A DNA stretch of 21,147 bases from a virus. Shown here piece by piece: positions 4,847 to 10,269 of this stretch. The stretch's first letter is position 1. Each line of letters begins with the position of its first letter. The translations under genes were made by a program, and so were the position numbers. The notes under the pieces were generated by a model. It made no database searches, was not told where the DNA came from, and saw only the letters and a list, made by a program, of their open reading frames with translations. Location: the IMG/VR virus record IMGVR_UViG_3300025864_000058, positions 1 through 21,147 of that record, one strand, 5' to 3'.

Positions 4847-5003
4847 CAAGATCCGTATCTTAGTTAAATGCGATCTGCAAAACGGGAACAGGCATAAAAT
4901 AAAGGCACTCATTCCAAAACTTCTAGCAGATGAAAATTACGAAGCATTACAAGGAATTAAATTAGCCAATTTGGATACAAAGAAATTGTTTTTAAACAAA
5001 TAA
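4824..5003 (+). CDS. Hypothetical small basic protein
   Basis: A 59-residue basic protein if started at the ATG at 4824; an in-frame ATG at 4788 would add 12 residues but lies deeper in the preceding gene. It is mostly helical (KIRILVKCDLQNG, IKALIPKLLADENYEALQGI). No family recognised. It ends right where the promoter and structured leader of the first HNH gene begin, marking a boundary in the operon. Confidence 0.55.
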   Translation: MKPKSYTDKIRILVKCDLQNGNRHKIKALIPKLLADENYEALQGIKLANLDTKKLFLNK

Positions 5004-5015
5004 TACGTATCTTTG
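4986..5015 (+). promoter_or_regulatory. Bacteroidota-type promoter for first HNH leader
   Basis: TATCTTTG at 5008-5015 matches the Bacteroidota -7 element TAnnTTTG exactly. TTG at 4986-4988 lies 19 bases upstream, the expected distance for the -33 element, although only TTG of TTTG is present. Transcription would start about five bases after the -7 element, at or near G5020, which is the first base of the leader helix. Confidence 0.6.
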
Positions 5016-5019
5016 TATT

Positions 5020-5113
5020 GCTATTCAGTTATGAAAACTTTAAAAACATTCCCGCTCCTTACACTGCCGAAAGCGCAACCCGCGCAACTGGATAGCCTTT
5101 GTATTGAGCGGGA
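5020..5113 (+). ncRNA. Structured HNH leader 1 (pseudoknot)
   Basis: Two long complementary pairs interleave. Helix A pairs 5020-5030 (GCTATTCAGTT) with 5086-5096 (AACTGGATAGC): 11 pairs, one a G-U. Helix B pairs 5050-5057 (TCCCGCTC) with 5106-5113 (GAGCGGGA): eight pairs. The order A-B-A'-B' is an H-type pseudoknot. A GCGC-AACCC-GCGC mini-hairpin sits at 5073-5085. The B' strand is followed by a T-rich stretch and then the HNH start at 5124. An ATG directly after the A strand (5031) reads in frame into the HNH gene, so a longer product or a leader-coupled start is possible. Confidence 0.6.
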
Positions 5114-5123
5114 TATTTTTATT

Positions 5124-5633
5124 ATGAAAGAAATTTTATTAAGTCAGCAGAGCAAAAAGAATAAGGGTAAATATATTGCTCTGGTAGATGACGAAGACTA
5201 TGAAACTGTTAACCAGTTCAGGTGGCATGCGTATAAAAATAGAAATACTATTTATGCGCGAAGAAACATAAATATATTAAACAGGAAACAGACAGGGCAG
5301 TCTCTTCATCAATTTATAATGGGTGAGAATTTTATCGACCACATAGATAGGGATGGACTGAATTGTCAGAGATTAAATATGAGAAAATGCACTCCTCAAC
5401 AAAATTCCTTTAACAGTAGTGGAGTTAAAAATTCAGCATCAATATTTAAGGGAGTTATCTGGAATAAAACAGTTAAAAAATGGCAAGCTCAAATTGGAAT
5501 GAATAAAAAATGTATTTATATCGGAATATATACTGACGAGATTGATGCTGCCATTGCGTACGATAAAAAAGCAGTTGAGTTATACGGAGAATTTGCAAGA
5601 TTAAACATATTAATTCAAGATGAAAAAATTTAG
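5124..5633 (+). CDS. HNH homing-type endonuclease with AP2 domain (copy 1)
   Basis: A 169-residue protein counted from the ATG at 5124, chosen because its first residues (MKEI) align with the two paralogues; ATG 5031 would add 31 residues encoded by the structured leader. Residues 17-35 hold the conserved 'ALVDDEDYExVNxFxW' start. The HNH fold has His62, then Asp72-His73 and Asn80/Asn94. An AP2-type DNA-binding domain covers about 105-162 (IFKGVIW to AYDKKAVELYGEFARLN). Such enzymes nick or cut DNA at specific sites and spread as free-standing mobile genes. The 3' end overlaps the next gene by 14 bases, consistent with an insertion accommodated in the operon. Confidence 0.92.
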   Translation: MKEILLSQQSKKNKGKYIALVDDEDYETVNQFRWHAYKNRNTIYARRNINILNRKQTGQSLHQFIMGENFIDHIDRDGLNCQRLNMRKCTPQQNSFNSSGVKNSASIFKGVIWNKTVKKWQAQIGMNKKCIYIGIYTDEIDAAIAYDKKAVELYGEFARLNILIQDEKI

Positions 5634-6743: not shown

Positions 6744-6773
6744 TTGCAAATTGAGTAAATTGTATTATATTTG
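6744..6773 (+). promoter_or_regulatory. Bacteroidota-type promoter for candidate small RNA
   Basis: TATATTTG at 6766-6773 matches TAnnTTTG exactly, and TTG at 6744-6746 lies 19 bases upstream as the -33 element. The predicted start falls about base 6778, directly before the folded RNA. Confidence 0.65.
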
Positions 6774-6777
6774 TTTC

Positions 6778-6856
6778 GTCAACGGACAGGTTGAGCGTAA
6801 AATATTGAGGGTTGAAGAAAACCCGTGAAGCTCGAATAAGTAAACTGTCCTTTATT
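6778..6856 (+). ncRNA. Candidate folded small RNA or leader
   Basis: Three nested helices follow the promoter. P1 pairs 6784-6789 (GGACAG) with 6845-6850 (CTGTCC). P2 pairs 6791-6796 (TTGAGC) with 6830-6835 (GCTCGA, one G-U). P3 pairs 6809-6813 (GGGTT) with 6820-6824 (AACCC) around a six-base loop. The closing strand of P1 is followed by TTTATTTATTT, like a weak terminator. It could be a free small RNA of about 75-80 bases or the 5' leader of the gene at 6886. It matches no RNA family I can name. Confidence 0.5.
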
Positions 6857-6885
6857 TATTTGGGCTTTACACATTTTAGAAAGTT

Positions 6886-7119
6886 ATGACAACATTAGAT
6901 GAGGATAGGGAATTAGCGATAAAACTTATAAACAGTGGGAAAATTTCGCTGTTAGATGAAATAATAGAAATACATATCAAACCGCTATTTTTTAGTCTCG
7001 ATATTGCATCTGTAAAGTATTTTACTCAAAAAGGGGATATTAGCGGGGGATTTCTTCTCGCACTCAGGAAGATGCTAATTGAATATGGTGAAATTTGCGA
7101 TAAATCATTAACAACATAA
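6886..7119 (+). CDS. Hypothetical small phage protein
   Basis: A 77-residue, mostly helical protein (ELAIKLINSGKISLLDEIIEI, GFLLALRKMLIEYGEIC). No family recognised. It is the first gene after the promoter and folded RNA at 6744-6850, so its expression is probably governed by them. Confidence 0.6.
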   Translation: MTTLDEDRELAIKLINSGKISLLDEIIEIHIKPLFFSLDIASVKYFTQKGDISGGFLLALRKMLIEYGEICDKSLTT

Positions 7120-8203: not shown

Positions 8204-8299
8204 GCTTATCAATTTCATCATGAATCAAAAAAATATTTATACCCCGAAAGTAGATGCAACCCACCCCGGTGAAGTTGATAAGCCATTTACCGTAGGGGT
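8204..8299 (+). ncRNA. Structured HNH leader 2 (16-bp helix, possible pseudoknot)
   Basis: Bases 8204-8219 pair with 8268-8283 over 16 unbroken pairs, two of them G-U, starting at the predicted transcription start. In the loop, ACCCC at 8241-8245 can pair with GGGGT at 8295-8299 just before the HNH start, giving the same A-B-A'-B' order as leader 1. ACCCC at 8263-8267 is an equally good partner, so the second helix is uncertain. The loop shares CCGAAAG and GCAACCC with leader 1. The leader also encodes a 32-codon frame. Confidence 0.6.
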
Positions 8300-8318
8300 T
8301 TATTATTTCACAAAATGA
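8220..8318 (+). CDS. Candidate 32-residue leader peptide
   Basis: The ATG follows the 5' strand of the 16-bp leader helix with no gap. The frame encodes MNQKNIYTPKVDATHPGEV followed by a beta-like tail and stops in an ATGA overlap with the HNH start at 8315. Translating ribosomes would melt the 3' half of the helix and could then reinitiate at the HNH start, as in translational attenuators. Leader 1 has an ATG at the same place relative to its helix. There is no homology evidence for the peptide. Confidence 0.4.
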   Translation: MNQKNIYTPKVDATHPGEVDKPFTVGVYYFTK

Positions 8319-8779
8319 AAGAAATTAAGTTAACTCAAGGACTTGTTGCATTGGTTGACGATGAGGATTTTGAGCGAGTAAATCATTTTAAGTGGTGTGC
8401 ACACAAGCATGGGAAAACATTTTATGCCAGAAGAGCAGAAACGATTAACGGAAAGCAAAAAATAATATCCATGCATTGTTTTATTATGAATACGAAGGGA
8501 ATAGACCATGTTGACGGAGACGGATTAAACTGCCAAAAATTGAACATGAGAAAATGCACCCATCAACATAATATAATGAATCAAAGGCCGCAAAAGAACA
8601 AATCATCTATATACAAGGGAGTTTGTATTCAGGGTGCTAAGTGGAGATCAGGGATCATGTTTAATAAAAAAGGCATTTATTTAGGGTTGTTTGTTAACGA
8701 GATGGATGCAGCTAAAACCTATGATAAAAAAGCCGTTGAGCTTTTTGGCGAGTATGCACGCTTAAATTTTCCGATATGA
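8315..8779 (+). CDS. HNH homing-type endonuclease with AP2 domain (copy 2)
   Basis: A 154-residue paralogue of the enzyme at 5124. The N-terminus (MKEIKLTQGLVALVDDEDFE) and the AP2 end (TYDKKAVELFGEYARLN) align closely. HNH residues are His54, Asp64-His65, Asn72 and Asn86; the AP2 domain spans about 97-153. All key residues look present, so it is probably active. It lacks the six-residue KxxGKY-type insert that copies 1 and 3 carry after residue 9. The stop overlaps the following methyltransferase start as ATGA. Confidence 0.92.
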   Translation: MKEIKLTQGLVALVDDEDFERVNHFKWCAHKHGKTFYARRAETINGKQKIISMHCFIMNTKGIDHVDGDGLNCQKLNMRKCTHQHNIMNQRPQKNKSSIYKGVCIQGAKWRSGIMFNKKGIYLGLFVNEMDAAKTYDKKAVELFGEYARLNFPI

Positions 8780-9695: not shown

Positions 9696-9766
9696 TGAGG
9701 GAAAGCGCAAAGGTTTTATTAAACTGCCGTCATTTTGCGAGATTCCCTCATCTCAAAGAATGACGG
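9696..9766 (+). ncRNA. Structured HNH leader 3 (pseudoknot)
   Basis: Helix A pairs 9696-9703 with 9743-9750 (TGAGGGAA / TTCCCTCA, eight pairs) and continues as 9706-9711 (CGCAAA) with 9734-9739 (TTTGCG) after a small internal loop. Helix B pairs 9727-9733 (CCGTCAT) in the loop with 9760-9766 (ATGACGG) downstream. The order is again A-B-A'-B'. TTTTTAATTTT directly follows B', so B alone could also act as a terminator-like hairpin. GAAAGCGCAA is shared with leader 1. Confidence 0.55.
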
Positions 9767-9783
9767 TTTTTAATTTTAATGAC

Positions 9784-10269
9784 ATGAAGGAAATACAATT
9801 AAGTCAGCACGGGAAAAACAGGGGGAAATATGTCGCCTTGGTAGATGATGAAGATTACGAAAGGGTGAACCAATACCCATGGAGTATCGCACGCGGTAAA
9901 TATTCGATTTATGCCCAAAGTAGAATATTGGTAAACGGAATATATAAGGCAATACAAATGCACACTTTTATAACAGATAATAAAATAAGCGATCATATGG
10001 ATCATGATGGTTTGAACAATCAAAAAAGTAATTTAAGAAACTGTACTAATAGTCAAAATTTATGCAATCGAAGAAAATTTAAAAATAAATCATCAAAATA
10101 CAAAGGGGTTTCGTGGCATATAAGATATAATACTTGGGTTGCTTACATAGTTTACTGTGGAAAATTAAAAACTATCGGGTGTTATAAGGTAGAAGAAGAT
10201 GCAGCAATGGCATATGATACCGCCGCAAAAAATATATATAAAGAGTTTGCATACGTTAATTTCAAATAA
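9784..10269 (+). CDS. HNH homing-type endonuclease with AP2 domain (copy 3)
   Basis: A 161-residue paralogue. The ATG at 9784 is chosen because MKEIQLSQ aligns with the other two copies; upstream in-frame TTG 9676 and ATG 9760 lie within the structured leader. HNH residues are His60, Asp70-His71, Asn78 and Asn92. The AP2 domain spans about 103-159 (SSKYKGVSWH to EFAYVNF). It diverges most from the others, notably in the AP2 C-terminus. It sits immediately before the terminase genes. HNH proteins beside terminases can aid packaging in some phages, but the AP2 domain points to a mobile homing gene here. Confidence 0.9.
   Translation: MKEIQLSQHGKNRGKYVALVDDEDYERVNQYPWSIARGKYSIYAQSRILVNGIYKAIQMHTFITDNKISDHMDHDGLNNQKSNLRNCTNSQNLCNRRKFKNKSSKYKGVSWHIRYNTWVAYIVYCGKLKTIGCYKVEEDAAMAYDTAAKNIYKEFAYVNFK

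Follow-up and report, generated by a model that had tools for sequence, protein, structure and literature searches.

A portable pseudoknotted leader RNA upstream of endonuclease genes in Bacteroidota phages, a putative kinetic attenuator

The window, i.e. the whole stretch of 21,147 nucleotides of viral DNA analysed here, contains three genes for HNH-AP2 endonucleases on its forward strand, and all three are preceded by a leader with interleaved helices. The first gene, HNH1 (5124–5633), encodes a protein of 169 amino acids assigned to PHROG 99 HNH endonuclease (2.6e-34) and starts with the ATG at 5124–5126. Upstream of it a Bacteroidota-type promoter can be read off the letters at 4986–5015, consisting of TTG (4986–4988), 19 nt and the box TATCTTTG (5008–5015), which we take to be the established consensus of Bacteroidota promoters. 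The leader opens with the 5' strand of helix P1 (GCTATTCAGTT, 5020–5030), which lies 4 nt downstream of the −7 box, at the predicted transcription start, as a first-pass annotation of this DNA had assumed. A TAnnTTT(G/A)-like box is located about 4 nt upstream of P1 in every leader of this HNH1 type, in the following called type A. P1 is followed by the A-rich linker L1 with conserved ATGAAAA-like letters (5031–5049), the 5' strand of P2 (5050–5063, with TCCCGCTC at 5050–5057 and the conserved extension TACA at 5060–5063), the hairpin P3 (5073–5076 with 5082–5085, loop AACCC), which sits between the strands of P1 and P2, and the 3' strand of P1 (AACTGGATAGC, 5086–5096). Then come the 3' strand of P2 (5100–5113, with the extension TGTA at 5100–5103 and GAGCGGGA at 5106–5113) and a U-rich tract (TATTTTTATT, 5114–5123), which reaches the start codon. 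P1 comprises 11 contiguous pairs including one U-G, and P2 comprises eight Watson-Crick pairs and goes on beyond a 2x2 internal loop with TACA/TGTA. The helices are arranged in the order P1-P2-P1'-P2' and are thus interleaved. Two interleaved helices of 11 and eight pairs between the promoter and the endonuclease start had been proposed beforehand, and both were recovered, with the start refined to ATG 5124. P2 ends at 5113, about 10–11 nt 5' of the ATG, and both the start codon and the U-tract lie outside the helices.

When the 150-nt leader upstream of the start codon was dinucleotide-shuffled 200 times, no shuffle matched this interleaved pair, in agreement with the earlier statement that such helices are very unlikely by chance. 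Under the same criteria one other pseudoknot occurs along the whole 21 kb of the window's forward strand, at 4974–5048, and it overlaps the HNH1 leader region. A plain nested fold of the leader yields P2 only (z −3.5), and P1 and P2 together therefore require a pseudoknot. Within Rfam 15, no family matched the HNH1 leader (5020–5113) above its gathering cut-off, with matches at chance level only at 4950–5200, and no riboswitch, ribozyme or intron was matched in the window. A self-cleaving or self-splicing element was rejected, since no Rfam ribozyme or intron matched and the topology alone is no evidence for one. No description of such leaders was found in the literature, the coverage of which is incomplete, so that 'new' is provisional and the type-A leader is provisionally regarded as a so far unnamed pseudoknotted leader family.

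The leaders of the other two HNH genes follow the same plan, with interleaved helices soon after a −7 box. The HNH2 gene (8315–8779; PHROG 99, 3.2e-28) has a leader at 8204–8299 with a P1 of 16 bp (8204–8219 with 8268–8283) and a P2 at 8241–8245 with 8295–8299. A covariance model trained on HNH1-type leaders recognizes it with 28.2 bits (E 8e-4). The shuffle score is that of whichever interleaved pair is strongest, and in HNH2 this pair differs from the biologically likely P2. HNH3 (9784–10269; PHROG 99, 1e-31; Pfam AP2 2.8e-6, below the curated cut-off) is preceded by a leader at 9696–9767, in which P1 is formed by 9696–9703 with 9743–9750 and P2 by 9727–9736 with 9757–9766. An inner helix of GAGAT (9739–9743) and ATCTC (9750–9754) turns P1' into the apical loop of P2, and the 5' end of the HNH3 transcript is thus predicted to pair with the loop of a hairpin preceding the start codon. 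A homologue of this leader is present in locus L128 (512–625). HNH1 and HNH2 each end with a stop codon that overlaps the start of the phage gene behind it (window 5620–5633 and 8776–8779), and the cassette promoter and leader may govern these downstream genes as well. Another stretch of the window, 6762–6885, has a TATATTTG box and a weak crossing pair upstream of an ORF of 77 amino acids at 6886. This crossing pair is not significant (121 of 300 shuffles), and the intergenic stretch is absent at the homologue of the ORF in the related phage G012 (L419 8613).

Homologous leaders were collected by protein searches of viral contigs, in which the HNH2 query returned 57 loci and the HNH3 query 80 loci. 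For 97 non-redundant HNH-AP2 start sites the best interleaved helix pair per 150-nt leader was compared with 200 shuffles of the same leader. Twenty of the 97 leaders beat all 200 shuffles and 39 ranked at or below 10/200, compared with five and 23, respectively, of 300 other ORFs of the same loci (Fisher p 2e-9 and 1e-12). The five control matches include two that are themselves related, one being the antisense of a leader and one lying before an apparent HNH gene (L178:309). The HNH-AP2 leaders fall into several sequence classes, which share the succession of P1, a P2 that crosses it, a U-rich tract and the start, and the promoter box is common to the Bacteroidota-type leaders. A short repeat array at about 74242 of G013 (in L424; GTATGCGTATGCGGATGCGG) was the source of many false pseudoknot matches.

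Covariation was looked for in 11 leaders of the HNH1 class (A2), scored on the pseudoknot named above. In these, 87.3% of the cells are paired, compared with 74.9 in column shuffles and 31–40 after sliding by 1–3. Fifteen pairs have double-sided changes versus 8.5 in shuffles, the covariation score is 0.363 versus 0.146, and none of 500 shuffles reached the observed value for paired cells, double changes or score. P1 is paired in 95.8% of its cells with three pairs changed on both sides, and P2 including the conserved inner TACA/TGTA in 86.8% with nine such pairs. P3 has three of its four pairs changed on both sides and 64% of its cells paired, the rest being partly alignment slippage. Both helices covary, and the pseudoknot claimed from the single sequence withstood the comparison. 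Wobbles occur as G-U on the mRNA strand in 27 cells versus four cells with A-C, and this bias indicates that it is the sense RNA which is conserved. Further members beyond the training set of model R1 are L457 (85.6 bits), L452 (81.7 bits), L405 (61.1 bits) and L209 (43.7 bits). In the non-training leaders P1 is paired in 67 of 69 cells with its letters replaced, which is weaker evidence as the alignment was fitted to P1, and P2 is paired in 50 of 78 cells with visible register slips. The linker ATGAAAA..ATTAAAAA, CATTGCC and CTTTG tend to persist while the letters of P1 change. Taken from these sequence comparisons, the reading of the HNH1 leader as a real conserved RNA pseudoknot with a third hairpin is well supported. 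An in-frame N-terminal extension of the endonuclease from the ATG at 5031 was rejected, because the frame is kept in W1 and L335 only, is lost in L143, L329, L163 and L333, and the ATG is missing in L181.

Type-A leaders are found before HNH-AP2 genes in the window and in seven other loci (L143, L163, L181, L205, L329, L333, L335), before NUMOD4-HNH genes (L206, L209, L405) and before a GIY-YIG gene (L196). They also precede genes that do not encode endonucleases, namely a DUF6291 gene (L405 539–681) and the gene behind L209 769–893. A search with DUF6291 yielded two further type-A leaders (L452 and L457, 82–86 bits), and nine of its 34 non-redundant leaders ranked at or below 10/200 shuffles, two of them at 0/200. 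The DUF6291-like genes behind the leaders are listed as unknown in PHROGs, and a role of this gene group in replication is only an inference. A leader confined to endonucleases is thus ruled out by the DUF6291-like genes, and the earlier proposal that the RNA controls a mobile endonuclease is too narrow for the family, which also precedes NUMOD4-HNH, GIY-YIG and DUF6291-like genes. Other leader classes precede the HNH family PHROG 374 (G013 21267) and a zinc-rich HNH-like protein with no family match (G013 22829). A single phage contig, G008, has four type-A model matches before different genes. The type-A pattern was absent from all 395 Bacteroidota genomes in a pattern search, and a chromosomal origin was rejected on this basis. 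In the relative G012 the homologue of the gene that follows HNH1 (5620) has no HNH cassette, and a type-A leader with an HNH gene is located elsewhere. This arrangement fits a mobile unit, with flanks too divergent to read the ends of an insertion. Judged by the genes that it precedes, the type-A leader is a portable phage unit, which is carried along by homing-endonuclease cassettes. Among annotated phages the nearest HNH-AP2 genes mostly lie tight behind an upstream gene, and no named phage with a type-A leader was found among these nearest genes. The 3.5-kb contig of L209 (JAHFKU010000036.1), filed under Candidatus Staskawiczbacteria, contains two leaders of the Bacteroidota-phage kind and is probably a phage fragment binned into the wrong genome.

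How such a leader could act is suggested by what follows P2. In 26 leaders the mean T fraction is 0.63 after P2 versus 0.29 before P2 (p 3e-10), and 16 of the 26 have at least five T within 8 nt after P2, with the U-tracts often broken by A or G. The T-rich stretch before Bacteroidota start codons may have other reasons; T at −20 to −6 amounts to 0.27 in other ORFs of the same loci versus 0.44 in the leaders, with a control set that includes non-Bacteroidota phages. In HNH1 the GC-rich P2 helix is directly followed by the U-tract, as in an intrinsic terminator. A simple terminator scan, which permits loops of 3–8 nt only, returned none at 5050–5123, where the P2 loop holds P1' and P3. For transcripts that stop at the end of P1', the predicted minimum free energy fold contains the complete P1 in 15 of 17 leaders. 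For whole leaders, the form with P2 is predicted to be more stable by 4–14 kcal/mol in 14 of 15 leaders, in HNH1 by 10.8. A kinetic attenuator would be expected to show such a combination of P1 forming early, P2 forming later with higher stability and a U-tract behind P2. According to this model P1 would fold first behind the RNA polymerase and keep the leader in a conformation that hinders P2. Once P1 is broken up, or has had enough time to rearrange, P2 as the more stable hairpin would form and, with its U-tract, act as an intrinsic terminator, which in Bacteroidota would also crowd the start codon. The outcome would be an attenuated, conditional expression of the downstream gene, which would be useful for a DNA endonuclease as well as for other phage genes. 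P1 and P2 could also coexist as a stable pseudoknot because they share no strands, a state that nested energies cannot score. The leader most likely acts as an expression switch. We lean, on balance, towards reading the segment from about 5016 to 5123 as a kinetic attenuator with P2 as the terminator-like and P1 as the anti-terminator element, and as a member of an unnamed portable leader family. Control by hiding the start or by a switch to a terminator-like form had both been suggested before, and it is the latter half that is favoured, by P2 with a U-tract before the start codon, by the prediction that P1 forms first and by the higher predicted stability of P2.

The main rival of attenuation is occlusion of translation, and both may act. 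Bacteroidota rarely use a Shine-Dalgarno sequence, so structure at −8 to −20 should matter, and in nearly all leaders the distance from the end of P2 to the ATG is 7–23 nt. A pseudoknot whose P2 abuts or overlaps the ribosome footprint could hide the initiation region of the endonuclease and open on a signal, with no termination involved, for which the hairpins of I-TevI, segB and mobE would be a precedent (PMC2988022). P2, however, leaves the start codon and the U-rich stretch free, the Shine-Dalgarno-like GGAG of three leaders (L161, L345, L389) is downstream of the P2 end and unpaired with P2, and no ribosome site sequestered in a helix, as in control of the T-even type, was found in the HNH1 leader. 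Translational control without termination is possible but doubtful as the full explanation. The helices might instead be DNA-level repeats that serve as binding or nicking sites of the endonuclease, as some homing endonucleases such as I-TevI bind operators near their own promoters. The 27:4 asymmetry between G-U and A-C, the variation of the P1 and P2 letters within one endonuclease family and the occurrence of the same leader before unrelated endonucleases and DUF6291-like genes all speak against it, and we hold it for highly improbable.

A further reading is a regulation in trans. Termination at the U-tract would free a leader RNA of about 100 nt, which would pair via its P1 or P2 strands with a leader RNA like itself, be it nascent or full-length, and the very variable letters of P1 and P2 would be the own address of each copy. 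Short prophage RNAs provide precedents, namely IsrK and P4 CI/seqA (PMC4825925). The letters of P1 are wholly replaced between copies with pairing kept, and G008 alone carries copies with differing P1; neutral compensatory drift, however, also yields variable helices, and two of the G008 copies have an identical P1. This reading appears unlikely. A wider version of it, which we also regard as rather unlikely, sees a portable module that would move between unrelated selfish endonucleases (HNH-AP2, NUMOD4-HNH, GIY-YIG) and phage operons, and whose freely changing 'address' helices would make each terminated leader RNA act specifically on its own kind, as an RNA immunity or exclusion system of homing-endonuclease cassettes and phages. 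Finally, a structured 5' end could simply shield the mRNA of a mobile gene from decay and, in every genome newly entered, from unwanted pairing, with no switching at all. In Bacteroidota leaders the −7 box is followed at a distance of 0–12 nt by P1, which thus lies close to the predicted 5' end, and related phages have the type-A leader and its HNH gene at different places; both observations suit such an insulation. It does not account, however, for the crossing of the helices, the conservation of CATTGCC and CTTTG or the U-tract, and we consider it quite unlikely.

Leaders of mRNAs with an H-type pseudoknot in the order P1-P2-P1'-P2' are known from T4 gene 32 and from the preQ1 and SAM-II riboswitches. 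Compared with these, the HNH1-type leaders have longer helices (8–18 bp) and possess P3 as a further hairpin and a U-tract downstream of P2. In T-even phages the leaders of homing-endonuclease genes form hairpins that in most cases hide the ribosome site, and in seg43(25) of Aeromonas phage 25 a stable hairpin lies directly 5' of the ribosome site and not over it (PMC2988022). The hairpins of I-TevI/II/III, segB and Aeh1 mobE resemble the HNH1 leader in being a structured 5' leader beside the translation start. They are, however, simple hairpins and mostly bound to the choice between early and late promoters, whereas the HNH1-type leader is a crossing pseudoknot that runs from the predicted transcription start of the cassette itself, forms a conserved family and precedes several gene families. 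Prophage leaders in which an early terminator yields a regulatory RNA are P4 CI RNA and IsrK (PMC4825925). P4 CI/seqA and IsrK of Gifsy-1 share with the HNH1 leader complementary segments in one leader and an early terminator, putative in HNH1, before phage genes, but have no demonstrated sequence relation to it, and the cited work mentions no pseudoknot. Whereas the known T4-like leaders are simple hairpins, the family described here consists of covarying pseudoknots and has no Rfam entry. Its occurrence with at least three endonuclease families and DUF6291-like genes suggests that Bacteroidota phages have a regulatory scheme in common, and the timing of dangerous nucleases by phages and their parasites becomes directly testable.

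Besides the type-A leaders, a second class of HNH-AP2 leaders is matched by the Rfam family int-alpA (RF02996, gathering cut-off 35.8 bits). The matches are located shortly 5' of HNH-AP2 start codons at L172 1914–1979 (45.7 bits), L164 1916–1982 (40.7 bits) and G419 36722–36792 (43.2 bits), and two more leaders, also upstream of HNH-AP2, match below the cut-off. The window contains no match to RF02996, and the HNH1 leader (5020–5113) is accordingly unmatched by it. Int-alpA is filed by Rfam as an sRNA, but in the HNH-AP2 leaders it stands just before the start codon and has an extra pairing of its loop with downstream sequence. It may thus represent a leader RNA and not an sRNA in its own right, which suggests a possible role for this catalogued RNA as the leader of HNH genes. 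An int-alpA-like class of Bacteroidota leaders (L132, L138, L147, L155, L158, L173, L376) has a loop that pairs downstream of the U-tract of the hairpin, and the loop strand CCAGAAC can also pair with a second copy nearer to the ATG. The loop strands seen in L132, L138, L155, L158 (upstream of ATG 2001) and L173 (upstream of 186) are AACCAGAAC and TGTACCA. Their potential partners occur in two copies, the first in the pseudoknot and the second just ahead of the start codon, as GTTCTGG and CTGGTT for the former and as TGGTACA twice for the latter. A loop with two partner copies resembles a built-in two-state switch. The phage contig of L132 also has a match to Permuted tmRNA (RF04321, 60.5 bits) at 1557–1772, shortly upstream of an HNH-AP2 gene.
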